Positions 48,421 through 62,638 of a stretch of 64,000 bases of DNA are shown in pieces. Position 1 is the stretch's first letter. Every line of letters starts with the position of its first letter. The notes under the pieces were generated by a model that saw nothing but the letters and a program-made list of their open reading frames with translations, had not been told where the DNA came from and ran no database searches. The translations under genes and the position numbers were made by a program. Source of the DNA: Haloarcula rubra (GTDB taxonomy: Archaea > Halobacteriota > Halobacteria > Halobacteriales > Haloarculaceae); assembly GCF_019599465.1 (NCBI RefSeq), contig NZ_RKLR01000014.1, positions 1 to 64,000 on the forward strand, given 5' to 3'.

Positions 48421-48582
48421 ATGACTACGAAACCACTCGATATCGGCGTTCTGGGGTATCGCTCCACGGCCACCTTTTTCCGCCTCGGGTCGCCTGCGGC
48501 GACCACTCGGCGCAAAAACGTGGGCGAAAAAGGCCGCTCGCTCACGCTGTTCGCTCGCGGCACGGGAGAGACGAGCGCATGA
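48421..48582 (+). CDS. Chimeric truncated duplicate of the Gfo/Idh start
   Basis: A 53-residue ORF opens MTTKPLDIGVLGYR, nearly the same as the next gene (MTTEPLDIGVLGYR). The first 43 bases match the later copy at 38 positions; then a spacer of about 115 bases follows, with a hairpin (48488-48504) and repeat-like sequence. Its TGA overlaps the ATG of the full gene by four bases. It looks like a leader created by insertion of a repeat between duplicated gene starts. It probably has no enzyme function but may carry ribosomes to the real start. Confidence 0.55.
   Translation: MTTKPLDIGVLGYRSTATFFRLGSPAATTRRKNVGEKGRSLTLFARGTGETSA
48488..48504. repeat. Hairpin within the inserted spacer
   Basis: GGTCGCC (48488-48494), loop TGC, GGCGACC (48498-48504). 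It lies in the spacer that separates the two copies of the Gfo/Idh start. The spacer resembles short repeats seen inside haloarchaeal genes; identity not checked. Confidence 0.45.
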
Positions 48583-49688
48583 CCACAGAACCACTCGACA
48601 TCGGCGTTCTGGGGTACCGCTTCATGGGCAAAGCGCACGCAAATGCGTTCGCGCGCTTGCCCATGTTCTTCGAGGACGCGCCCGAACTCAACCGCGACGT
48701 ACTGGTCGGGCGCGACGAAGACGCGCTGGCAGACGCCGCCGACCAACTCGGGTTCGCGCGGACGGCGACCGACTGGCGCGACGTGATAGACGACGTGGAC
48801 GTGTTCTACAACCTCGGGCCGAACCACGTCCACGCCGAGCCGTCCATCGCGGCGCTGGAAGCCGGGACGCCGGTCTTCTGCGAAAAACCACTGGCGCCGA
48901 CGCTGGAGACGGCCGAACAGATGGCCGAAGCCGCCGCCGACGCGGCAGTGCCGGCGGGCATCGCGTTCAACTACCGGTTCATCCCGGCCATCCAGTACGC
49001 GAAGAACCTCATCGACGCCGGGGAGTTGGGAGAGATTCGCCACTTCCGCGGGCGGTACTTACAGGACTGGCTGACCGACCCCGAAGCGCCGTGGTCGTGG
49101 CGCAACGACGCGGAGATGGCCGGCAGCGGCGCGCTCGGGGACTTGGGCGCGCACACGATTGATTTGGCGCGGTTCCTCGTCGGGGGCATCGCGGAACTGA
49201 GCGGGCACCTGCGGACGTTCGTCGACGAGCGACCGATCGAAGACGGAAGCGAGACGCGGCCGGTCACGGTCGACGACGCGTACTCGGCACAGGTCGCCTT
49301 CGAGAACGGCGTGATGGGAACCTTGGAGGCCTCGCGGTTCGCCAACGGCCACAAGAACGACCATACGGTAGAGATAGAAGGCTCGGAGGGAAGCCTGCGG
49401 TTCTCGCTGGAGCGGCTGAACGAACTGGAACTGCTACGCGAGGACGGGCGGGGCTTCGAGACGATACTGATGACAGAGGCCGAGGATCCGTACGTCGAGC
49501 ACTGGTGGCCGCCGGGCCACGTCATCGGGTGGGAACACACGTTCGTCCACGAGAACTACGAGTTCCTCTCGGCCGTCGCCGACGACGCCGCCTACGAACC
49601 CAGCTTCGCCGACGGACTGGCCGTCCAGCGGGTACTGGACGCTGTCGAACGGAGCGATGCCAACGGCGAGTGGGTCGACGTCGCGTAG
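48579..49688 (+). CDS. Gfo/Idh/MocA-family oxidoreductase
   Basis: 369 residues. The N-terminal Rossmann part has GYRFMGKAHANAF in the dinucleotide-binding turn, FYNLGPNHVHAEPS and the catalytic-lysine motif FCEKPLAPTLE; the C-terminal part has DLGAHTIDLARF, with the family's Asp/His. It oxidises a sugar or cyclitol with NAD(P). Coupled by ATGA overlap to the chimeric leader ORF, and preceded by the TIM-barrel isomerase, so the three form one transcript. Confidence 0.88.
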   Translation: MTTEPLDIGVLGYRFMGKAHANAFARLPMFFEDAPELNRDVLVGRDEDALADAADQLGFARTATDWRDVIDDVDVFYNLGPNHVHAEPSIAALEAGTPVFCEKPLAPTLETAEQMAEAAADAAVPAGIAFNYRFIPAIQYAKNLIDAGELGEIRHFRGRYLQDWLTDPEAPWSWRNDAEMAGSGALGDLGAHTIDLARFLVGGIAELSGHLRTFVDERPIEDGSETRPVTVDDAYSAQVAFENGVMGTLEASRFANGHKNDHTVEIEGSEGSLRFSLERLNELELLREDGRGFETILMTEAEDPYVEHWWPPGHVIGWEHTFVHENYEFLSAVADDAAYEPSFADGLAVQRVLDAVERSDANGEWVDVA

Positions 49689-50011: not shown

Positions 50012-50863
50012 TCACTCTTTGACTGCTCCTTTGGTCAATCCGGAGATGATGTACCGTTGAGTCACCAGCAGGAACACCGCCACGGGTGCGATGGTAATGA
50101 CAATCCCGGCCGAAAGTTCGTTCCACGCGATGTTGTACTGGCCGACGAACTCGGTAGTGGCGACGGGCAGTGTCTTCGCCTCCGTCCGGGTCAGGACGAG
50201 CGCGAAAAAGTACTCGTTCCAAGTCAGGATGAAGCTGATGATGGCGGCGGCGCCGATACCTGGTTTGATGAGCGGGAGGTAGATGTGATAGAACGTCTGG
50301 AGGTGGGTCGCACCGTCGACCTCGGCGGCTTCACCGAGGCTGTCGGGGATGTCGTCGATGAACCCACGAGTGAACCAGACGATGAGCGGAAGCGTAAACA
50401 CGGCGTACACGAGACCGAGCCAGAGACTGCTGTCCAGCGACCCCAGTGCGCGGAAGATATTGAAGTACGGGATGGTCGCGACGATGGGCGGGAGCATGAA
50501 GATGGAGAGGAAGAAAAAGCCCAGATGGTGGTCGAGGTTCAGTCCAAAATCGTACCGGACGATGACGTACGTCGCGGGAATGCCCAGTACCAACCCGACG
50601 ACGACGGCGATGAGCGTCGCGACGAGACTGTTGACGACGTAGTCGAAGTACGCGCCCTGAATCAGGATGGACTCGTACGCGTCGAGCGTGACCGTTTCCG
50701 GAATCCAGATGGGTGGCAGTCGGAACGAGGCGCGTGTCGTCATCACCGACCGGGTGAGTATCCAGTAGATGGGGAACAACGCCACGAGCGTAGCGAGTGC
50801 GACGAATAGCGTTCCGGTTCTATCGAGCAGTGCGTCTGTATCGAGTGGGGATGTCGTACTCAT
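50012..50863 (-). CDS. CUT1 ABC sugar permease, MalG-type
   Basis: 283 residues with six membrane helices. The EAA coupling loop reads EAAEVDGATHLQTFYHIYLPLIKPG, which I split as EAAEVDGATHLQTF / IYLPLIKPG; it is the mark of CUT1 permeases that contact the ATPase. Third gene of the binding protein-MalF-MalG operon, 2 bases after the MalF-like gene. The ATPase is provided by the gene at 54189 on the other strand. Confidence 0.9.
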   Translation of the reverse strand: MSTTSPLDTDALLDRTGTLFVALATLVALFPIYWILTRSVMTTRASFRLPPIWIPETVTLDAYESILIQGAYFDYVVNSLVATLIAVVVGLVLGIPATYVIVRYDFGLNLDHHLGFFFLSIFMLPPIVATIPYFNIFRALGSLDSSLWLGLVYAVFTLPLIVWFTRGFIDDIPDSLGEAAEVDGATHLQTFYHIYLPLIKPGIGAAAIISFILTWNEYFFALVLTRTEAKTLPVATTEFVGQYNIAWNELSAGIVITIAPVAVFLLVTQRYIISGLTKGAVKE

Positions 50864-50865
50864 GA

Positions 50866-51771
50866 TTATCTCGCCTCGTTGACTCGTGAGAGTGCGGCGA
50901 TGAACACGTTGCTCACGAGGATGATGAACACCAGGAACAGGAACGACATCGCGGCCGCGCTCGCGGTGTTGAGGAACGAGAAGGCGTTCTCGTAGATGAG
51001 CATCGTGAGCGTCTTGGTCGACCCACCGGGGCCACCGCCGGTCATCGCGAATATCTTGTCACCGCCCTTGAACGCCATGATGAGGCGGATGAGCGCGGTC
51101 ACGAGCAACACGGGGTATAACTGCGGAAGGATGATGTATCGGAATCGCTGGAGGCGGGTCGCCCCGTCTATCTTGGCCGCCTCGATGAGGCTCTCCGGAA
51201 TCGTCTGGAGGCCGGCGTAGACCAGCACAAACACGAACGGCGTCCACTGCCAGACGTCCGCGGCGACGACGGTCACCATCGCCAGTTGCGGGTCACTGAG
51301 CCACACCGGTTCCGGGAGACCGATAGTGCCGAACAAGTAGTTGACGATACCGAGGTTCGAACTGAAGAACCACCGGAACATCAGCCCGACAGCGAAGGTA
51401 CTCAGCACCATCGGTAACAGAAGGATGGTCTGGACCGACCGCTCGAACCGGTTGACAGAGTTGTATGCCATCGCGAGCGCCGTCCCGAAGAGGAGTTCGA
51501 GGCCGACCGACGGCACCGCGAACAGCAGCGTCGCGACGACGGCCTCGTGGAACGAGGGGCTGAGAATCACGTCGACGTAGTTCTCTAGACCGACGAATGC
51601 GCCGCCGACGCCCTCCGAGAGACTCAATCTGAGGAGGAACACCATCGGGTAAACGATCCACGCGACGGCGTAGAGGAACGCCGGTAAGACCATCCCGTAC
51701 TTGAATACGGTCCGACGGTCGACAGATTGCCACGTGACCCCGTCGAGTGACGGGAGTGTGCGTGTCGCCAT
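50866..51771 (-). CDS. CUT1 ABC sugar permease, MalF-type
   Basis: 301 residues, six to seven membrane helices. The EAA loop is EAAKIDGATRLQRFRYI. The N-terminal part has AWIVYPMVFLLRLSLSEG, typical of the MalF/UgpA-type partner. Coupled closely to the binding-protein gene upstream (5 bases) and the MalG-like gene downstream. Confidence 0.9.
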   Translation of the reverse strand: MATRTLPSLDGVTWQSVDRRTVFKYGMVLPAFLYAVAWIVYPMVFLLRLSLSEGVGGAFVGLENYVDVILSPSFHEAVVATLLFAVPSVGLELLFGTALAMAYNSVNRFERSVQTILLLPMVLSTFAVGLMFRWFFSSNLGIVNYLFGTIGLPEPVWLSDPQLAMVTVVAADVWQWTPFVFVLVYAGLQTIPESLIEAAKIDGATRLQRFRYIILPQLYPVLLVTALIRLIMAFKGGDKIFAMTGGGPGGSTKTLTMLIYENAFSFLNTASAAAMSFLFLVFIILVSNVFIAALSRVNEAR

Positions 51772-51776
51772 TGGCC

Positions 51777-53264
51777 TCAGTAGCCCTGTTCTTCCAGGAG
51801 CTGACGGGTCTCGTCAGCGGCGTTGGACAGGGCTTTTTGCGGATCCATGCCCTGGGTGATCGACCGGGTCAACCACTTCTGCATCGTGCTGGACCACTCG
51901 AAATAGCCCTTGATTTTCGGTCGGCCGATGCCGTACTCCGTGAGGCCCTCGTACAGTGCTTGGAAGAACGCGGGCGAGGTCTGGAACACCTCGTTGCCCG
52001 ACTGGGTGAGGTGGTCGTACGCGGACTGACGACTCGGCTGAGCACCGTAGCGAGCGCGCTCTATCTGCACGTCCGTACTGGAGAGCCACTCGATGAACCG
52101 CCACGCGGCGCGTTTCTTCTGTGAGTTCTTCGGGATAGCGAGCGACCACGTGCCGTAGTGTGGGCGTCGGAGCATGGTTCCGGAGACGTCGGACCCTGGG
52201 TACGGTGCGTACCCAACTTTGCCAGCGACTTCTGACTGTTCGGGGTCGTTCGCGACACGGGCCGTGCTGGAGAACGCTTGGCCGGTGGCGAGGCGTCCCT
52301 GAATGAAGTTCTGCGTGACGTCCGTCCAGTCCCAACTCGTGACGCCATCGGGCGTGTAGTCCGCTTCGACTAGTTCTTTGTAGTACTTCAGCGTATCTAC
52401 GGCGGTCTGGTTGTCGAAGACGGGGTTCCACGACTCGCTGATACCGAAGGGTGCCTCCTCGATGGTCTCACCCTCGAAGAAGCGCCCGCCGCGGGCGTAC
52501 AGCATGCTCTTCCACTCGACGAGAAGGGATTCGTGCTCTTTGGCCATCATCGCCATGCCGTAGCGGTTCTGGTCGTGGTCGGTCAATTCTCGTGCGACCC
52601 GCTGGTAGTCTGCGAGGGTCTGGGGCGGCGAGAGTCCGGCCTCGTCGTACAGGTCTTTCCGGTAGTACAGCGTGAGGACGTTGGGCTGATACGGGATGCC
52701 CATTATGTTGCCAGCGTCGAGGTTCAGGTAGTCGTCCGGGGCTCCCCAGACGACGGTGTCGTCCCAGACGCGCTGGAGAAAGTCCGACTGGGGCAAGTCA
52801 CTCTGAGCGAGGCGGTCGTTCAGCGGCTGTATCCAGTCGTTACTGACGAACGCGGGCCAGTACGGGACGTCGACGTCGATGACGTCGTAGCTCCCGGAGG
52901 AGCCTTCGAGCGACGTGAACTGTTTGGAGATGAGGTCTCCGTAGGGCGCCGTCTCTAAGTTGACTGTTATGCCCGTCTCCTCCTCGAACTGCGGGAGTAC
53001 CTGCCGGGTCGCCTCCGCCTGCGCGGCGGCGTATTCCAGCATGTTGATGGTCGTCCCAGAGAGGTCGTCGTCGCCGCCCTCGGTCACGGTTCCACCCGTC
53101 TCCGTCCCTCCACCGCCGCCACCGCTCCCACCGTCGCCCCAACCGATACACCCCGAGAGGAGTGCGGCCGCGCCGGCGGCACCGCCTTTCAGGAACGTCC
53201 GGCGGTGGCTGGCGGTAGTCCTCGTCGTACTCTCTACTGCGTGGTGGCTGTCACTGCTACGCAT
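51777..53264 (-). CDS. CUT1 ABC sugar-binding lipoprotein
   Basis: 495 residues. Tat signal SHRRTFLKGGAAGAAALLSGC with lipobox, then a Gly/Glu-rich tether. The mature part is a cluster-B (MalE/UgpB-type) binding protein: TRQVLPQFEEETGITVNLE and PYGDLISKQFTSLEG. Ligand probably a mono- or oligosaccharide. A TATA box (AGTATATAATTG on the plus strand) about 26 bases upstream implies a leaderless start at 53264. Confidence 0.9.
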   Translation of the reverse strand: MRSSDSHHAVESTTRTTASHRRTFLKGGAAGAAALLSGCIGWGDGGSGGGGGGTETGGTVTEGGDDDLSGTTINMLEYAAAQAEATRQVLPQFEEETGITVNLETAPYGDLISKQFTSLEGSSGSYDVIDVDVPYWPAFVSNDWIQPLNDRLAQSDLPQSDFLQRVWDDTVVWGAPDDYLNLDAGNIMGIPYQPNVLTLYYRKDLYDEAGLSPPQTLADYQRVARELTDHDQNRYGMAMMAKEHESLLVEWKSMLYARGGRFFEGETIEEAPFGISESWNPVFDNQTAVDTLKYYKELVEADYTPDGVTSWDWTDVTQNFIQGRLATGQAFSSTARVANDPEQSEVAGKVGYAPYPGSDVSGTMLRRPHYGTWSLAIPKNSQKKRAAWRFIEWLSSTDVQIERARYGAQPSRQSAYDHLTQSGNEVFQTSPAFFQALYEGLTEYGIGRPKIKGYFEWSSTMQKWLTRSITQGMDPQKALSNAADETRQLLEEQGY

Positions 53265-53283
53265 ACCTGTATGGTGCCAATAA

Positions 53284-53333
53284 TAGTATATAATTGTTTG
53301 GGTGGAACCCGGTCCGTTGGCAAATATTTAAAT
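53284..53333. promoter_or_regulatory. Back-to-back promoters of the CUT1 genes
   Basis: TAGTATATAATTG (53284-53296) serves the minus-strand binding-protein gene and AATATTTAAAT (53323-53333) the plus-strand TIM-barrel/ATPase genes. The latter box is too close to ATG 53337 and so supports the start at 53361. Confidence 0.55.
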
Positions 53334-53360
53334 ACGATGAGTCAGCATCTCATACGTGCG

Positions 53361-54185
53361 ATGGTTCGACTAGGCATCAACACTTGGCTGTACGCTAGTT
53401 TTCCAGTGTGGACTCCGAGTTACACGTTGGAAGACGCTATCGACCACGTCGACGACGCGGGATTCGACTCTATCGAGTTCGGCGCCGCGTCGCCGCACGC
53501 GTGGCCACAGTACATGGATGAAGAACGACAAGCATCGATTCAAGAACGACTGGACGCGAGTGACATGACGGTTTCGAGCATCTGCCCGGCATTAGGCGGT
53601 GGGCCTGGCCCCAACCCAGCCAGCCCGCTTGAAGAAGAACGGGAGGCGGCCCGCGAACACTACATGGGATGTCTCGATGTCGCCGAGATGTTCGACAGCG
53701 ACATCGTCATCTGGGTCGGTGGGTGGCGGTTACAGGGTCAGCGCTTCGAGGACGCGTGGGCTAACCAACGGGCTATACTCGAGGACGTCCTCGACACCGC
53801 CGAGGATAGGGACAAGACGGTCGTTATCGAGGCCAACGCCGCCGACGTCAACCTCATCGAGACGACTCAACAGCAGTTGCGACTGCTGGAGGAGGTCGAT
53901 TCATCCAGTGCGGCGGCGATGATGGACACCGCACACGCCGCCCACCGCGGGGAGTCCCCGGCTGCGTACGTCGAGGAACTGGGCGCGAACCTCGCTCACT
54001 TGCACCTCGCCGACACCGACCGGCTCCCGCCGGGGGAGGGTGACCTCTCCTTCCGCGCGATGTTCGACAAGTTGGACGACATCGGCTACGACGGTCACTA
54101 CACCGCAGAGATATTTGGTGGCCATCTCGACCCCGACGAGGCGGCACTGACCACTCGCGAGAACCTCTCCGCGATGCTGGAGTGA
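53361..54185 (+). CDS. Sugar phosphate isomerase/epimerase-like TIM barrel 2
   Basis: 274 residues from MVRLGINTWLYASF. Xylose-isomerase-like barrel: AGFDSIEFGAASPHAW, VVIEANAADVN (Glu), AAMMDTAHAAHRGE (Asp, His), LAHLHLADTDRLPPGEGD and YTAEIFGG (last Glu), so the metal site is complete. Only distantly like the protein at 47435. Followed after 3 bases by the ATPase gene; likely acts on the sugar carried by the neighbouring CUT1 transporter. Confidence 0.85.
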   Translation: MVRLGINTWLYASFPVWTPSYTLEDAIDHVDDAGFDSIEFGAASPHAWPQYMDEERQASIQERLDASDMTVSSICPALGGGPGPNPASPLEEEREAAREHYMGCLDVAEMFDSDIVIWVGGWRLQGQRFEDAWANQRAILEDVLDTAEDRDKTVVIEANAADVNLIETTQQQLRLLEEVDSSSAAAMMDTAHAAHRGESPAAYVEELGANLAHLHLADTDRLPPGEGDLSFRAMFDKLDDIGYDGHYTAEIFGGHLDPDEAALTTRENLSAMLE

Positions 54186-54188
54186 CCC

Positions 54189-55331
54189 ATGGCGTCTGTC
54201 ACTGTCGACCGGATGACGAAGGTGTACGACGACGACGGTGCAGACATCGTCGCCGTCTCTGACCTCGATATCGAGGTACGCGACGGCGAGTTCCTCGTCC
54301 TCGTCGGCCCCTCCGGGTGTGGAAAGTCGACGACCCTGCGGTGTATCGCCGGCCTCGAATCGGTGAGTGAGGGAACCATCGCTATCGGTGACGACGTGGT
54401 CACGGGGAAGAGCCCCCGTGAGCGTAACATCGCGATGGTGTTCCAGAACTACGCGCTGTACCCCCACATGACCGCTCGGGAGAACATGTCCTTCGGGCTG
54501 AAGATGTCCGGTGAGTACACCGACCGAGAAATCGCAGACCGCGTCGAGTCCGCGGCCGAGTTGATGGGCATCGAACCGTTGCTGGAGAAGCGGCCGGGAG
54601 AACTCTCCGGTGGCCAGCAACAACGGGTCGCGCTCGGACGGGCTATCGTCCGCGACCCGGCGGTGTTCCTGATGGACGAGCCGCTGTCGAATCTGGACGC
54701 GAAGCTCCGGACGCAGATGCGGACCGAACTCCAAAGCCTCCAGTCGGAACTGGGGACGACGACGATCTACGTGACCCACGACCAGACAGAGGCGATGACG
54801 ATGGCGGACCGAATAGCTATCCTCAACGACGGCGAGCTACAGCAGATAGGGTCACCGCTGGAGTGTTACTACGCGCCAGCGAACCGATTCGTCGCGGGGT
54901 TCATCGGGTCGCCGTCCATGAACTTCCTCGACGTGACCGTCGACGGCGAGGTGCTCCGACACGATTCGCTCACCCTCCCGGTCACGCCGTCGCTCAGCGA
55001 CACGGTCGGTGGGATGGAGTCAGTCACGCTCGGTATCAGACCCGAAGACATCACGCTGGAGTCGGGGCCGACCCAGGACGCCGACGCTATCGAAGCGACA
55101 GTCGACGTCGTGGAACCGATGGGTGACCTCTCGTACGTCTATCTAACTGTCGGTGGGACAGAGATTACTGCGACGGTCGAGGGTGAGCGGGTGTTCACTG
55201 CGGGAGAGACTGTCACGATGCGGTTCCCCGACGACCGGCTCCACCTCTTCGAGACGGAGACGGGCGAGGCGGTGCGGACACGGGTCGTCCCTGAGGACAG
55301 GTCGGTTCAGGGCGGCGGAATCGCAGGCTGA
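54189..55331 (+). CDS. CUT1 ABC ATPase, MalK/UgpC-type
   Basis: 380 residues. Walker A GPSGCGKSTT, Q-loop MVFQNYALYPHMT, signature LSGGQQQRVALGRA, Walker B VFLMDEPLSNLD, H-loop VTHDQTEAMT, then the TOBE regulatory domain (LGIRPEDITLESG), all typical of MalK-type subunits that serve CUT1 permeases. It fits the transporter encoded on the opposite strand at 50012-53264, whose operon lacks an ATPase. Confidence 0.92.
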   Translation: MASVTVDRMTKVYDDDGADIVAVSDLDIEVRDGEFLVLVGPSGCGKSTTLRCIAGLESVSEGTIAIGDDVVTGKSPRERNIAMVFQNYALYPHMTARENMSFGLKMSGEYTDREIADRVESAAELMGIEPLLEKRPGELSGGQQQRVALGRAIVRDPAVFLMDEPLSNLDAKLRTQMRTELQSLQSELGTTTIYVTHDQTEAMTMADRIAILNDGELQQIGSPLECYYAPANRFVAGFIGSPSMNFLDVTVDGEVLRHDSLTLPVTPSLSDTVGGMESVTLGIRPEDITLESGPTQDADAIEATVDVVEPMGDLSYVYLTVGGTEITATVEGERVFTAGETVTMRFPDDRLHLFETETGEAVRTRVVPEDRSVQGGGIAG

Positions 55332-55825: not shown

Positions 55826-56845
55826 TTACTGGTCGAAATAGGCCGCGATGTCTTCTGGGGGGTCGGTCTGGAAGTAGGTCGGATACAGGTCGAGGAGGTT
55901 CCCGCGATGAATCGGGAGGACGCCCGAAGCGATGAACGGAGGGGTACTGTTCGCCAGCAGCGAATTGGCTATCATGTCCGCTTCGATTCGGCCCTGCTGA
56001 TAGGGGAACTGGGCACCAGTCGCTTTGATTGGACCGTCCATGGCGATGTTGGCCGCCGTGTCGGTACTGAGCCCCGTCGTGGTGATGACGAGATCCTCCA
56101 TACCCCTGTCGAGTGCGGCGTCGGCCGCCTGAGTACCGGGCGGGTCGCCCCAACTGACGAAGAGGCCGTCGAGGTCCGGGTTCGTCGTGAGGAGGTCGCT
56201 TGCGAGGTCGTAGACGTCGTCCGGGTCAGTGAAACCCTCCTCCGCGACGACGGTCACGTCCTCGGCCGGTTCGAGGACGTCGCGGACGCCCTGTTCGCGG
56301 GCAGAAGTGACGTAGAAGGGGGCGTCGAAGGTGATGAGGCCGACAGTGCCCGACCCGACTCTGTCGCGGAGGAACCGGCCAGCGAAGATGCCTAGCCCCT
56401 GATTGTCCGAAGAGACGGTGCCCGCGTAGTCCTCGGGATGCTCGAACCCCTGTGGGACGTTGTCGATGAAGACGATTTTCGTTCCGGCGGCGGCGACGTT
56501 GCGGTACGCCTTCGCGGTGGCAATCTGATCGATGGGGATGGAGACGAGGGCGTCGACGTCTTTCGCCGCGAGCCGGTTGATGATGTCGACCTGCTTGCTC
56601 GCGTCGAACTCCGACCCGTAGATACCCTCGACGCTGATGCCGAGGTCCTCGAAGCGGGTGGTCAGGCCGTCCAACTGGAGGCGAACGTAGTCCGTCTTGA
56701 GGTAGTGGAACACGATGGCGACGGTGTAGTCCGACGCCCGAAGGTGCTCGATGTCCTGTTGGGAGAGGACCACGTCCTCTGCCGGTGACGGTTCGGCCCC
56801 CTTCGGACCTTTGCCGACTGGGTTACCAGACAGAATCGTTTTCAT
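55826..56845 (-). CDS. Cytosolic homologue of a CUT2 sugar-binding protein
   Basis: 339 residues from MKTILSGNPVGKGPKGAEP. It is a type I binding-protein fold closely similar to the lipoprotein at 57007 (VAIVFHYLKTDYVRLQLDG against VEIVFHYKGDTWVRLQREA; KIVFIDNVPQGFEHPEDYAG against ELVFMDNVAEGFQHPSDYAG). It has no Tat signal, lipobox or DNA-binding domain. A TATA-like ACAAATACTATTA about 30 bases upstream supports this start. It should stay in the cytosol and bind the same type of sugar. A longer frame upstream would overlap the divergent gene and is not believed. Possible sugar sensor. Confidence 0.75.
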   Translation of the reverse strand: MKTILSGNPVGKGPKGAEPSPAEDVVLSQQDIEHLRASDYTVAIVFHYLKTDYVRLQLDGLTTRFEDLGISVEGIYGSEFDASKQVDIINRLAAKDVDALVSIPIDQIATAKAYRNVAAAGTKIVFIDNVPQGFEHPEDYAGTVSSDNQGLGIFAGRFLRDRVGSGTVGLITFDAPFYVTSAREQGVRDVLEPAEDVTVVAEEGFTDPDDVYDLASDLLTTNPDLDGLFVSWGDPPGTQAADAALDRGMEDLVITTTGLSTDTAANIAMDGPIKATGAQFPYQQGRIEADMIANSLLANSTPPFIASGVLPIHRGNLLDLYPTYFQTDPPEDIAAYFDQ

Positions 56846-56962
56846 TGTAAGACTCCAGTTCGCGGTCAGTAATAGTATTTGTGGACACCTCGTCGAGTAC
56901 CCCACTATCCCAGACACCAATGTCGTAGTAGAGGAACGTCGTCGACTACGTGGCGGAACAAT

Positions 56963-56973
56963 AATTATATATA
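56963..56973 (+). promoter_or_regulatory. TATA box of the CUT2 operon
   Basis: AATTATATATA centred about 39 bases before ATG 57007. The intergenic region 56846-57006 is shared with the divergent cytosolic binding-protein gene. Confidence 0.5.
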
Positions 56974-57006
56974 GGTGGGCCAGAAACAGATTCGTGCAGA
57001 GTAAAT

Positions 57007-58203
57007 ATGACAAGCCAGAAGAATCGTCGAGCGTTCTTGAGAGGCATCGGTGCGGTCGGCCTCGGAATCGGACTTGCAGGGTGCAGTGGTGACGGTAACA
57101 GTGGTGATGGTGGTGGGGGTACCGCTACGGGAGACGGCAGCACGGGCACCTCCAGCAGTGATGGTGGCGCTGGTGGGGTCCAGTTCGACCTTGACGCCAT
57201 CGACCCGGAAGGGCTCGTTGGACAGGGTCCCTACGGCGAAGAGGCGGCCGCACCGGAGTCGGTCGCACTTTCCGAGACTGAGGTCTCAGACGTGCAGAAC
57301 GAGGGTTTCAACGTCGAGATCGTCTTCCACTACAAGGGAGACACATGGGTTCGTCTCCAGCGTGAAGCCATCAAGAAGCGTACCAGTGACCTGGGCATGA
57401 ACATCACGGGTATCCACTACCCCGACTTCTCTGCCCAGAAGCAGAGCAACATCCTGGAGACGGTCGCCCAGAAAGACAACGTCGACGGCGTGTTTTCGAT
57501 TCCGGTCGACACGGCGGCGACGACGGATGCCTATCAGGCGGTCCTCGACGCCGGCAAGGAACTCGTCTTCATGGACAACGTCGCCGAGGGCTTCCAGCAC
57601 CCGTCCGATTACGCGGGCCTCGTCGCGGCCGACAACCGCGGCATGGGAACAATTGGCGGGCGGATGATGACGGAACTCGTGGACTCGGGCAAGATTATCT
57701 TCCTCGAGTTCGACGTGCCGTTCTACGTCGTCGATGAACGGGAAACGGGGGCCAAGCAGGTCCTCCAGGAGAGTGGGAACTACGAAGTGAAGACCTACGG
57801 GTTTACTGACCCGGGGAAGGTGCTTCAGGTTGCGCAGGACGCACTCACCTCAAACCCAGACGCGGCGGGGCTTTGGGCACCGTGGGTCGATGCGCCGGGC
57901 GCACAGGCCATTCAGGCCATCCGTCAAGCAGGCATGGACATTCCGGTCACCTCCTGTGATCTCGGCGAACGGAGTGCAGTGCTGATGGCCGAGCGTTCCG
58001 CGCTCAAGGGCGTTGGGTCCCAACAACCGTATGCGCAGGGGCTTACCGAGGTCGACGTGATGGCCAAAGCCCTGCTTGGGAAGGAGACGCCGCCGTACAT
58101 CGGCCTGCCCTCGCCACCGGTGGCACGACAGAACCTGCTGGAGATGTACCCGGAGATACTGAAAGAGGAACCGCCGGAGACGGTCACGAAGCACTTCCAA
58201 TGA
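57007..58203 (+). CDS. CUT2 ABC sugar-binding lipoprotein
   Basis: 398 residues. NRRAFLRGIGAVGLGIGLAGC combines twin-arginine signal and lipobox, and a Gly/Ser/Thr-rich tether of about 35 residues follows. The mature part is a ribose/xylose-type binding protein (VEIVFHYKGDTWVRLQREA; DGVFSIPVDTAATTDAYQAV; GLWAPWVDAPGAQAI). It delivers a monosaccharide to the permease at 58205. First gene of the CUT2 operon. Confidence 0.9.
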   Translation: MTSQKNRRAFLRGIGAVGLGIGLAGCSGDGNSGDGGGGTATGDGSTGTSSSDGGAGGVQFDLDAIDPEGLVGQGPYGEEAAAPESVALSETEVSDVQNEGFNVEIVFHYKGDTWVRLQREAIKKRTSDLGMNITGIHYPDFSAQKQSNILETVAQKDNVDGVFSIPVDTAATTDAYQAVLDAGKELVFMDNVAEGFQHPSDYAGLVAADNRGMGTIGGRMMTELVDSGKIIFLEFDVPFYVVDERETGAKQVLQESGNYEVKTYGFTDPGKVLQVAQDALTSNPDAAGLWAPWVDAPGAQAIQAIRQAGMDIPVTSCDLGERSAVLMAERSALKGVGSQQPYAQGLTEVDVMAKALLGKETPPYIGLPSPPVARQNLLEMYPEILKEEPPETVTKHFQ

Positions 58204-58204
58204 G

Positions 58205-59191
58205 ATGGTACTGATGGCGACGACATCGACATCCGACATCGGAAAACTGGTCAGCGACAGACTCGGGCGATTCGGCGAAATCGCACTCCTAGTCGGTGCA
58301 ATCGTACTTCTCGGTGGTATCTTCACAGCGACGAGCCCCGTGTTCTTCTCCATCGGGAACTTCGTGAACATCATCAGGCAGACGTCTATCGTCATCGTCT
58401 TGGGTCTGGGAATGACCTACGTCATCATCAGCGCGGAGATAGACGTCTCCATCGGTGGCGTGATGGCACTGAGTGCCGTCTCGGCAGGGCTCGTCATCAA
58501 CGCTGTCGGTCCGTTCGCTGGCGCGGTCGTCGGTCTGCTGGTCGGCTTGGGTTTCGGGCTGGCTAACGGCCTCGTGACGATTCGGTTCGGTATCCCGTCG
58601 TTCATCGTGACTATCGGTACGTTGGGTATCGCCCGAGGGGCCGCGTTCATCGTCTCCCAACAACGACCCATCATCGTCAGGAATGCCGCGTTCGAGACGG
58701 CATTCGGCGGAACAGTCGGGCCAGTACCGGTTCTCATCCTGTGGGCGCTTGGGCTGGCAATCGTCGCGGGTATCGCGCTCTGGCGAACCCGGTTCGGTCG
58801 ACACGTCTATGCCACCGGTGACTCAGAGCAGGCGTCCCGGTATTCGGGTATCAACACGGACCGCGTGAAGATTATGACGCTCGCGCTGGCCGGGTTGGCC
58901 GCCGGTATAGCCGGACTGCTGTTCATCGGGCGACTCGGTGCGGCCCGCGCCGACATGGCCTCGGGCATCGAGCTCGCGGTCATCGCCGCCGTAATCATCG
59001 GCGGTACCTCGCTGTTCGGTGGCCGCGGGAGTATCGTCGGAACGATACTCGGTGCGTTGCTCATCAGTGTCATCGACAACGGACTCACGCTGCTGGGCTT
59101 CGGTTCCAGTTGGCAACAGCTCATCCGTGGCGTCGTCATCATCGCCGCCGTCGCGCTCCGCGATAGGGACGAGGAGGGGAGCTTCCTATGA
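58205..59191 (+). CDS. CUT2 ABC sugar permease, RbsC/FrcC-type
   Basis: 328 residues, about ten helices. TSIVIVLGLGMTYVIISAEIDVSIGG, split as VIVLGLGMTYVIISAEID / VSIGGVMALSA, and YATGDSEQASRYSGINTDR are the conserved blocks of RbsC-type permeases; AVIIGGTSLFGGRGSIVGT is also typical. Starts 1 base after the binding-protein stop; a second Met 9 bases later is possible. Its end overlaps the ATPase start by 4 bases. Confidence 0.92.
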   Translation: MVLMATTSTSDIGKLVSDRLGRFGEIALLVGAIVLLGGIFTATSPVFFSIGNFVNIIRQTSIVIVLGLGMTYVIISAEIDVSIGGVMALSAVSAGLVINAVGPFAGAVVGLLVGLGFGLANGLVTIRFGIPSFIVTIGTLGIARGAAFIVSQQRPIIVRNAAFETAFGGTVGPVPVLILWALGLAIVAGIALWRTRFGRHVYATGDSEQASRYSGINTDRVKIMTLALAGLAAGIAGLLFIGRLGAARADMASGIELAVIAAVIIGGTSLFGGRGSIVGTILGALLISVIDNGLTLLGFGSSWQQLIRGVVIIAAVALRDRDEEGSFL

Positions 59192-59946
59192 GCGAAGTCA
59201 TCGAACTGGAACACATCTCGAAGCAGTTCGGGCAGGTGCAGGCTCTCGAAGACGTCTCGTTCGGTATCGAAGAGAATGAGGTGCTCGCGCTAGTCGGTGA
59301 CAACGGCGCCGGGAAATCAACCCTGATCAAGATAATCAGCGGCGTCCTACAGCAGACGAGCGGGACCATCTACATCCGCGGCGAGGAAGCAGAAATCGGC
59401 GACTACAACGATGCTGAGGCGCGGGGTATCGAGACGGTCTATCAAGACCTCGCTATCGCCCCTAACCGGACGGTCGCACAGAACATCTTCCTCGGCAACG
59501 AGATACTGGAGAGCGGCCCGTTGGGCAAGCTACTCCGGTTCGTCGACGACGATCAAATGGAGCGAGAGGCCTCGGAGCTACTCTCGAGACTGGAACTGAA
59601 CCTCGACCCGGGGAGTGCGGTCAAGAACTTCTCCGGCGGTGAGCAACAGAGCGTCGCCATCGCCCGGGCGCTTCAGTCGGACCCGGACATCGTCATCCTC
59701 GACGAGCCGACCAGCGCGCTCTCGCTGGACGCGACTCAGCGAGTGCTGGACCTCATCAAACGGCTCAACGAGCAGAACGTGACGATAATCTTCATCAGCC
59801 ACAATCTCGAGGCGGTGTTCAACGTGGCCGACCGGGCTGCAATCCTCGCATCCGGAAGACTCGTCGGCGTCGAAGACCTGACCGACGTGACCGAGGACGA
59901 ACTCGTCGGGATGATGATGGGACGCGCTCGTCAGTCGGCCGACTGA
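59188..59946 (+). CDS. CUT2 ABC ATPase with a single nucleotide-binding domain
   Basis: 252 residues. Walker A GDNGAGKST, signature FSGGEQQSVAIARAL, Walker B IVILDEPTSALSLD and H-loop ISHNLEAVF are intact. RbsA proteins usually have two such domains in about 500 residues; here there is one, as in FrcA-type subunits, so the active form should be a homodimer. ATGA-coupled to the permease. Confidence 0.9.
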   Translation: MSEVIELEHISKQFGQVQALEDVSFGIEENEVLALVGDNGAGKSTLIKIISGVLQQTSGTIYIRGEEAEIGDYNDAEARGIETVYQDLAIAPNRTVAQNIFLGNEILESGPLGKLLRFVDDDQMEREASELLSRLELNLDPGSAVKNFSGGEQQSVAIARALQSDPDIVILDEPTSALSLDATQRVLDLIKRLNEQNVTIIFISHNLEAVFNVADRAAILASGRLVGVEDLTDVTEDELVGMMMGRARQSAD

Positions 59947-60018: not shown

Positions 60019-61053
60019 ATGAAAGGAGTCGTACTACCAGGCGATAAAGAAGCACACGTACAGGACTGGGACAACCAATCGCTCGGCCCGGACGAAGTCC
60101 GCGTCGACATCGGTGCGGCGGCGCTCTGTCGGAGCGACATGAGCCTCTACAACGGCAACCCGCTCGTCGGGAGTAAGCCCGCAGGTACGGTCGTTCCCGG
60201 CCACGAACCTGCCGGTACAATCTCGGAAGTGGGCGACAACGTCGACCACCTCTCCGAGGGCGACCGCGTCGCAATCAACTGCTTCGCGGGATGTGAACAC
60301 TGCGAATACTGCCTGCGAGGCGAACCGAACCTCTGCCCGGACGTCGAGATTCTGGGGTTCGACCGTCACGGCGGTGACGCCGAGGAACTCGTCACACCGG
60401 CGTCGACCTGTCACCCGATGCCCGACGAGATGAGCATGGGTGTCGGCGCTATCGCGACGGACGCCCTCGGCAACCTCTGGAGTACGCTCAACGAGTGTAA
60501 CGTCAACGGCACCGACACGGTGGGCATCATCGGCCTCGGACCGATGGGCCTCGCCGGCGTCCTCAACGCGGACGCGATGGGAGCCGATGTCGTCGCGTAC
60601 GAACTCGTCGACCACCGTCGGGAAAAGGGTCTGGACCTCGGTGCCGAGTACGCCGTCGACCCCGGAGAAGAAGACGCGCAGGAACGGACCGACCAAATTA
60701 CGAACGGACGCGGACTCGACGTCGTCGTCGACTGTTCGGGCGCCCAGCCTGGCATCGAGATGGGCTTCGACTTGGTCAAGAAACACGGTACGTTCGCTCA
60801 AATCGGCGAGACGGACGAAGTGACCCTCAACCCCAGTGAAGACCTCATCCACAAGAAGGTCGACTACATGGGGTCGTGGTACTTCCGAAGCTACGAGTGG
60901 CCCGAAATCGCGGAGTTCATCGTCGAGAAAATTGGTAACGACCGTGCCGAGGAGATCATCTCCCACGAGTACGAACTCGAGGAGGAGAAGGTCCAAGAGG
61001 CGTTCCGAAAGTTCGACAACCACGAGACCCAGAAGGTCATCTTCACGCCGTAA
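60019..61053 (+). CDS. Zinc-dependent alcohol/polyol dehydrogenase (MDR)
   Basis: 344 residues. Catalytic zinc Cys in AALCRSDMSLY, His/Glu in VPGHEPAGTI, the structural-zinc Cys set in GCEHCEYCLRGEPNLC, and the NAD-binding GIIGLGPMGLAGV are all seen. Members oxidise sorbitol-, threonine- or galactitol-like substrates. Downstream of the CUT2 transporter, it likely oxidises the imported sugar or polyol. Confidence 0.9.
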   Translation: MKGVVLPGDKEAHVQDWDNQSLGPDEVRVDIGAAALCRSDMSLYNGNPLVGSKPAGTVVPGHEPAGTISEVGDNVDHLSEGDRVAINCFAGCEHCEYCLRGEPNLCPDVEILGFDRHGGDAEELVTPASTCHPMPDEMSMGVGAIATDALGNLWSTLNECNVNGTDTVGIIGLGPMGLAGVLNADAMGADVVAYELVDHRREKGLDLGAEYAVDPGEEDAQERTDQITNGRGLDVVVDCSGAQPGIEMGFDLVKKHGTFAQIGETDEVTLNPSEDLIHKKVDYMGSWYFRSYEWPEIAEFIVEKIGNDRAEEIISHEYELEEEKVQEAFRKFDNHETQKVIFTP

Positions 61054-61334: not shown

Positions 61335-62150
61335 TCAGTAGAGGTCTTCGGGGATGTGCGACCCCTCTCCGAGTGGGTCGCGCGATTCGAGCGAGAACTT
61401 GACTTCGACGAAGTTCTTCGTCTGCCTGACCAGCGCCGGAACCTCTTCGGTGAAGTGGTCCTCGGTCAACAAAGAGAGGGGGCCGGAGACGGCCACGGCA
61501 CCGACGACGCCGCCATCCTCCGAGAGAATGGGAGCACCGACGCCGCGCATCCCCGGAACGTTCTCTTCGTCCTCAAACGCGATGCCCTCCTGTCGAATGG
61601 TCTGGAGTTCGTCCTCTAACGTCGCTCGGTCCGTAATCGTGTTCTCGGTTTTCCCAGCTAGCGTGCCGTTTAGCAACCGGTCACGCTTCCCGTCGGACAA
61701 CCGGGAAAGGATTGCTTTCCCCGCGGCAGAACTGTGGAGCGTAATTTGCTTTCCGACACTGAGGTTCGGCACCACGGAGTCTTCACCATCGGCAGTGTGG
61801 ATACAGTACGCGTACTCCGAGTCCATTGCGGTGAGGTAGGCGAAGTAGTTGCTTTTCTCGGCCAGTTTGTCCACTTCGTCGGCCCCGATGGCGTACAACT
61901 GGCTGTTTGTCTTGACGTACTCACCCAGCAAGAGGAATCGGAAACTCAACCGGTATTCGGTCTGCTGTTTCGTCACCATTCCCGTTTTCACCAAAGTCGA
62001 GAGCTGCTTGTAAACGCCACTCTTAGACATCCCCAAATATTCAGATAGTTCCGTGACACCGGCTCCGTCGAGATCTTTGAGTGCGGTGAGGACACCGACT
62101 GCCCGCTCGACGGCTTCGACCGTTTCAGCGGGCCGCTTGTCGTTGTCCAT
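61335..62150 (-). CDS. IclR-family transcriptional regulator 2
   Basis: 271 residues from MDNDKRPAETVEAVERAV. Winged helix GVTELSEYLGMSKSGVYKQL, then the effector domain with LHSSAAGKAILSRLS and GAVAVSGPLSLL. Its upstream region (62151-62638) has a perfect 12-bp palindrome ACGGTATACCGT at 62205-62216, about 55 bases before the start, suited to autoregulation. It lies between the dehydrogenase (convergent) and the FAH-family gene (divergent) and is the likely regulator of the CUT2/dehydrogenase genes. Confidence 0.9.
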   Translation of the reverse strand: MDNDKRPAETVEAVERAVGVLTALKDLDGAGVTELSEYLGMSKSGVYKQLSTLVKTGMVTKQQTEYRLSFRFLLLGEYVKTNSQLYAIGADEVDKLAEKSNYFAYLTAMDSEYAYCIHTADGEDSVVPNLSVGKQITLHSSAAGKAILSRLSDGKRDRLLNGTLAGKTENTITDRATLEDELQTIRQEGIAFEDEENVPGMRGVGAPILSEDGGVVGAVAVSGPLSLLTEDHFTEEVPALVRQTKNFVEVKFSLESRDPLGEGSHIPEDLY

Positions 62151-62638
62151 GTTGTTTAGAATTTTGACTACCGGACTACTTAGACGTTCGGGACTCGGAT
62201 ATATACGGTATACCGTCACTGGCTACCGGCACACTGTCTCTGGAATCATGAGTATCCCCAGAGTGATTTTCGAAAATTCTTCCATCGGATATATTGCTAA
62301 TCCGTCACCAATCATAGTAACACGAAACGCCCACGATCTACACTTATACCTATATGTGCCAGATTATGGTTGTGGAAATCGAACTACCACTACATATCTG
62401 AGATTATAATGCCCTATTGACTATATTTATAGTCATAGTTACAAGACGAACTCTAAATTAGCATATATGGACACATAATTTCCATTTTTCTTCGAATATG
62501 GATGCTTTTCACGGAATGTGGCACGAGTTCCGAACGAATTACCCCTCATAAGATAGCGACATCGTTCAGAGTGAGTGTTCGAGTTCGAAGGTCAGTCAGT
62601 TCCAGTACCTCTTTCCGTCCCGTTACCACAGCACCGAT
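62151..62638. promoter_or_regulatory. Divergent AT-rich promoter region with palindromes
   Basis: 488 bases without a gene. Two perfect 12-bp palindromes are present: ACGGTATACCGT (62205-62216) and ATTTTCGAAAAT (62266-62277). The rest is very AT-rich with several TATA-like words. Probably the control region of iclR2 and the FAH-family gene. Confidence 0.55.

Follow-up and report, generated by a model that had tools for sequence, protein, structure and literature searches.

A signal-less paralogue of a haloarchaeal sugar-binding lipoprotein as a candidate intracellular sensor for a separate transcription regulator

The window analysed here is a stretch of 64,000 nucleotides of Haloarcula rubra DNA. 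It holds a divergent pair of genes for RbsB-type sugar-binding proteins, one of which, called the twin below, encodes a protein without an export signal. The features of the locus are listed here.

48579–49688, + strand: Gfo/Idh/MocA oxidoreductase of the same catabolic region, levoglucosan-dehydrogenase-like by its scores to 6a3f and 4h3v
53205–54185, + strand: sugar phosphate isomerase/epimerase-like TIM barrel, probable shorter start giving 274 aa; 76–93% identical in three other twin loci
55826–56845, − strand: the twin, a signal-less RbsB-type (Peripla_BP_4) sugar-binding protein, 339 aa; PF13407
56870–56884, − strand: TATA/BRE-like box of the twin, 24 nt before the ATG, a predicted leaderless promoter; CCAMAAA..CTATTA conserved in five of six orthologues
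56960–56974, + strand: TATA-like box of the lipoprotein gene; AATTATAWATA conserved in the window, Haloarcula sp. JP-L23, G016, Salinigranum and H. limi
57007–58203, + strand: Tat/lipobox sugar-binding lipoprotein, the exported paralogue, 398 aa; RR motif, LAGC lipobox, PF13407
58205–59191, + strand: ABC permease, RbsC type; PF02653, 150 bits; beside the lipoprotein in all loci with data
59188–59946, + strand: ABC ATPase, single-domain RbsA-type half, 252 aa; PF00005, sugar ABC equivalogs
60019–61053, + strand: zinc-dependent alcohol dehydrogenase; PF08240/PF00107; 70–97% identical in four other twin loci
61335–62219, − strand: IclR regulator, the candidate partner, probable start 62150, 271 aa; PF01614/PF09339

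The twin and the lipoprotein start 161 nt apart on opposite strands and are 42% identical over 329 amino acids (BLASTP, E 4e-92), confirming the first-pass annotation, which had taken the divergent genes for clear homologues. PF13407 (Peripla_BP_4) is the sole Pfam match of each protein, and in the twin it scores 119 bits (cutoff 35) over residues 42–295, covering the whole two-lobe domain. Sequence and Pfam also bear out the earlier description of one protein with a Tat/lipobox signal and one with neither signal nor DNA-binding domain. The N-terminus of the lipoprotein, MTSQKNRRAFLRGIGAVGLGIGLAGC, carries the twin arginine and the lipobox. The twin begins with MKTILSGNPVGKGPKGAEP, and its first ~45 amino acids hold no hydrophobic segment, RR motif or lipobox; it opens directly with a short GxGPxG segment, which in the lipoprotein follows the leader and linker. 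No DNA-binding domain was detected in the twin, where PF13407 is the only match and 41 residues lie ahead of it. When the genome was searched with the twin as query, two proteins were returned, the twin itself and the lipoprotein.

The export signal or lipobox expected of the binding proteins of ABC importers is missing from all six haloarchaeal twin orthologues, which come from the window, Haloarcula sp. JP-L23, G016, Salinigranum rubrum, Halogeometricum limi and Halalkalicoccus jeotgali and are 55–94% identical to each other. Without a signal peptide, the twin is not positioned for delivering substrate to an ABC importer. A signal encoded further upstream was ruled out. In five of the six orthologues the conserved box ends 24–25 nt ahead of the twin ATG, a distance that fits a leaderless haloarchaeal promoter and makes a more distant start very unlikely, and no signal sequence was found in the frames upstream of the ATG. 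The other observation that would have counted against a functional twin, a decaying gene with dN/dS near 1, was not made either, since pairwise dN/dS among the twins is 0.07–0.31, inside the range of the neighbouring genes. The twin is a live gene under purifying selection.

In a Foldseek search with an AF2 model of the twin (pLDDT 75, built from four sequences), the top PDB matches were all of RbsB type and included ribose-, glucose- and allose-binding proteins, with TM scores by query mostly of 0.6–0.75. To compare the sugar pockets, we aligned the family to E. coli RbsB. RbsB residues S9, F15, D89, R90, R141, N190 and Q235 correspond to H, W/Y, D, N, R, W and Q both in the twins and in their exported relatives. 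The pocket residues H47, the aromatic residue at 53, D128, N129, R183, W232 and Q279 are thus kept, as in exported binding proteins, in the haloarchaeal twins and also in a second, alphaproteobacterial twin lineage described below. Because the pocket core is kept, the haloarchaeal twin probably binds a sugar. This ligand may differ from the transported sugar, given the pocket-side changes W53Y, A146S and G260S in the haloarchaeal twins and the replacement of D258 by G in three of the six. The positions of RbsB D67 and R166, conserved in exported members, are kept in the haloarchaeal twins and lost in the alphaproteobacterial twins. A lost transporter-docking site was considered as a common mark of twins and rejected, as this loss is confined to the alphaproteobacterial ones.

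The twin is rare, occurring in 5 of 391 haloarchaeal genomes, with the lipoprotein present in every one. A contig search of genomes with the twin gave H. limi, one chance fragment and nothing else; the search sets are samples and the plasmid collection used below is biased. The divergent arrangement recurs beyond the window in JP-L23, G016 and Salinigranum, making four of the six loci. The two genes form a tandem in H. limi; the Halalkalicoccus twin instead has the IclR gene as its divergent neighbour and lies ~6 kb from the lipoprotein gene. These two loci led us to reject a conserved divergent layout. The pairing of twin and lipoprotein is conserved and a shared promoter region is not. Control from such a region, proposed in the first-pass annotation, is therefore not general, as the two genes have separate TATA-like boxes and their layout varies. 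Inspection of the intergenic regions by eye found no common operator motif.

Haloarchaeal twin loci share the lipoprotein, the permease, the half-size ATPase, the zinc alcohol dehydrogenase, isomerase/epimerase-like TIM barrels and one IclR. The Gfo/Idh protein of the window scores 301 bits to levoglucosan dehydrogenase 6a3f and 353 bits to 4h3v and is 42% identical to its Agrobacterium homologue. A second, unrelated sugar ABC importer is interleaved with these genes (50012–53264 on the − strand and 54189–55331 on the + strand), consisting of MalF/MalG-type permeases, an SBP_bac_1 lipoprotein and a UgpC-type ATPase, and both importer sets, the MalF/MalG-type and the RbsB-type, are conserved together in JP-L23 and Salinigranum. 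Small HTH proteins are present in the JP-L23, Salinigranum and Halalkalicoccus clusters. At L014:6842-7448, L015:7015-8665 and L016:7787-9452 a small HTH protein overlaps a gene without a Pfam match, of 103, 456 and 452 aa respectively; neither gene was found in the window or in H. limi.

Orthologues of the IclR (61–100% identical) occur in exactly the five sampled twin genomes, and all six twin loci have one. They share a conserved C-terminal tail, ESRDPLGEGSHIPEDLY, at 61335–61390 in the window. None of this genome's nine further IclRs has the tail, nor do the remaining haloarchaeal IclRs that were compared; the next haloarchaeal IclR after the twin-linked orthologues is 42% identical and lacks it. 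We regard ESRDPLGEGSHIPEDLY as a candidate docking element, possibly a docking peptide. The haloarchaeal IclR retains a recognisable effector domain; the C/S positions it has lost are not uniquely lost there, and loss of effector residues amounts to a weak trend. Since the cluster moves as a block, the transporter genes co-occur with the twin just as well as IclR does, and the joint presence of genes that travel in one mobile cluster is in itself no proof that the partner of the twin is IclR.

A strict association with a regulator was found in bacteria, whose loci were reached by tblastn against plasmids. These searches recovered levoglucosan-type clusters in rhizobia, Paracoccus, Klebsiella, Arthrobacter, Deinococcus and Metabacillus; the Gfo/Idh protein of the Agrobacterium cluster scores 605 bits to levoglucosan dehydrogenase 6a3f, and the pathway has been described (PMC7676230, PMC10066097). 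The clusters of Agrobacterium, Ensifer, Paracoccus, Mesorhizobium and Rhodobacteraceae SC52 encode a second, signal-less binding protein, whose gene neighbours one for a ROK regulator and diverges from the uptake operon. A related locus led to 297 genomes of a single order, taken as Rhizobiales. Of these, 13 encode this alphaproteobacterial twin (E below 1e-80), and the ROK (E below 1e-60) is found in the same 13 and in none of the others. The ROK gene is immediately followed by the twin, on the same strand, in each of the 13. The possible twin start ranges from an ATGA overlap to 26 nt past the ROK stop in 16 of 18 loci measured.

The ROK proteins linked to twins have changed at the Asn-Asp and Glu positions that we take to be the ROK sugar site. 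Asn-Asp is replaced in all 18 (by RSS, RSG, RGA, RSK or HSS), the Glu/Asp of the AG[ED]xG motif (G-E-x-G) is also gone in the 13 that were aligned, and many have lost the zinc motif. Four control ROKs, the whole of the comparison set, come from related clusters without a signal-less binding protein, and all four keep Asn-Asp and Glu/Asp; the nearest of them, from Arthrobacter, keeps all three motifs. Loss of Asn-Asp is not unique to twin-linked proteins, as the solved ROK repressor Lmo0178 has KN. The alignment of the twin-linked ROK with Mlc (3bp8, 1z6r) and Lmo0178 runs over both the HTH region and the ROK domain. Judged by its residues, the protein looks like a ROK and winged-HTH protein without a functional sugar site, as in the partner-controlled Mlc type. 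Mlc, a ROK repressor of E. coli, is induced by binding the transporter EIICB-Glc rather than the sugar (PMC3901232). The likeness lies in induction through a transport protein; the partner of Mlc differs in being a membrane PTS permease that acts through its phosphorylation state, whereas the candidate here is soluble and paralogous to an ABC binding protein.

The two twin lineages do not group together. In the maximum-likelihood tree the haloarchaeal twins (support 100/99) join haloarchaeal lipoproteins (100/100), and those of Alphaproteobacteria (100/100) fall with another exported clade (99/97). A phylogeny of both proteins had been proposed as a check in the first-pass annotation. The AU test rejected a tree constrained to unite the signal-less proteins in one clade (p 3e-10), and did so again after the three longest rows (RbsB, L024 and L029) were removed (p 3e-4); we accordingly discarded a common origin for all of them. 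The two clades together with this rejection indicate that a binding protein of this family turned cytosolic at least two times; one cytosolic origin with a later regain of export is less likely.

We consider it probable, with some reserve, that the twin of the window senses a ligand inside the cell as a subunit of a separate transcription regulator, likely the IclR, and we hold with greater confidence that the bacterial twin is an intracellular sensor subunit for ROK. The uptake system's own lipoprotein would have lost its export signal to give the twin, with most of the pocket kept. The twin would then report the imported sugar, or an early oxidised product of it, to a separate DNA-binding regulator, probably the IclR at 61335–62219, which would derepress or activate the uptake and catabolic genes. 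Such an arrangement would resemble a LacI-type sensor split into two genes, one for the binding domain and one for the DNA-binding protein. Ligand binding, contact between twin and regulator, and the direction of control are what we infer here, and by analogy the haloarchaeal IclR would play the role of the bacterial ROK. Because the same change arose separately in soil bacteria, always with one regulator, the twin probably signals sugar entry. The first-pass annotation had suggested that the twin senses the imported sugar and signals to a protein such as this IclR, or else carries sugar inside the cell. Of these two options sensing is the better supported, by the convergent twin locked to ROK and by the co-travel of IclR, the putative contact of the haloarchaeal twin.

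As an intracellular carrier or buffer, the twin would hold imported sugar and pass it to the dehydrogenase or epimerase of the cluster. The retained pocket core and the constant proximity of catabolic enzymes fit this, but it leaves the strict one-to-one operon with a site-less ROK in bacteria unexplained, stoichiometric intracellular sugar carriers are not an established class, and nothing came to light that speaks positively for it; we think it improbable. The permease and ATPase always accompany the haloarchaeal twin, which matches exported binding proteins at the positions equivalent to RbsB D67 and R166, and the twin could be imagined to dock on their cytoplasmic face and to inhibit or gate import (trans-inhibition). 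Binding proteins dock on the outer side of the permease, however, and the alphaproteobacterial twins, besides being tied to a regulator, have lost what is conserved at positions D106 and P208, so that such a gate also seems a poor prospect.

A less remote variant, although still an unlikely one, keeps ROK as the partner in bacteria and gives the haloarchaeal twin a different partner from IclR, for instance a small HTH protein or a kinase. IclR does have an effector domain of its own, and three of the clusters encode a small HTH protein. Between the alcohol dehydrogenase and IclR genes, however, no small HTH gene was annotated or detected in the window or in H. limi, for which reason we set it aside as a general partner, and IclR is found at six of six loci. 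A decaying duplicate can resemble a divergent, signal-less second copy, and the twin might on that ground be taken for a degenerate or misannotated binding protein on its way out; its low dN/dS, its conserved promoter and its full length in six species across several families leave this reading hardly credible.

Cytosolic solute-binding domains are used for regulation in SgrR and Btr, which belong to other binding-protein classes and have the HTH fused in one chain. In LuxP, XylFII and similar systems a binding protein senses for a separate signalling protein, but does so outside the membrane, on a sensor kinase, whereas the twin is cytosolic. RbsB, AlsB and the binding proteins of levoglucosan clusters share the PF13407 fold and family, and the twins are sisters or near relatives of the exported proteins there; they differ from RbsB-type proteins in having no signal peptide. 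The relation of LacI/GalR repressors to periplasmic binding proteins is established (PMC6079105). They have in common with the proposed role of the twin an intracellular type-I periplasmic-binding-protein fold and sugar sensing for transcription control. Their own HTH lies in the same chain, while the twin lacks one and resembles the transporter binding proteins of its own cluster far more than it does LacI.

Our literature search returned no description of a signal-less binding protein working with ROK or IclR, subscription papers being outside its coverage. Stand-alone signal-less ABC binding proteins may form an unrecognised class of trans-acting sugar sensors, recruited at least two times (with IclR in haloarchaea and with ROK in Alphaproteobacteria) from the binding protein of the organism's own uptake system, the partner losing its ligand site, and representing a living two-gene intermediate toward LacI; we see this broader proposal as evenly balanced. 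If it is correct, cells reuse a protein that catches sugar outside as a detector inside, with no fusion to a DNA-binding domain, and the twins offer a natural parallel, open to testing, for the origin proposed for LacI-type repressors. It would also give a new route to predicting the cargo of a transporter together with its controlling regulator, and a modular sensor part for engineering. Annotations reading "substrate-binding domain-containing protein" may in that case hide regulators.

Aminobacter and Nitratireductor (L030:5804-7990 and L033:6926-9213) encode two tandem exported binding proteins of the twin family in one operon, which also holds a ROK, an M20 peptidase and an alanine-racemase-like enzyme; these pairs were examined as further twins and rejected, as both members carry signals. 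The ATPase at 59188–59946 is a half of 252 aa, bacterial levoglucosan-type clusters have a double ATPase of ~500 aa, and the half-size form is also present in the Aminobacter and Nitratireductor clusters with the same binding-protein family.
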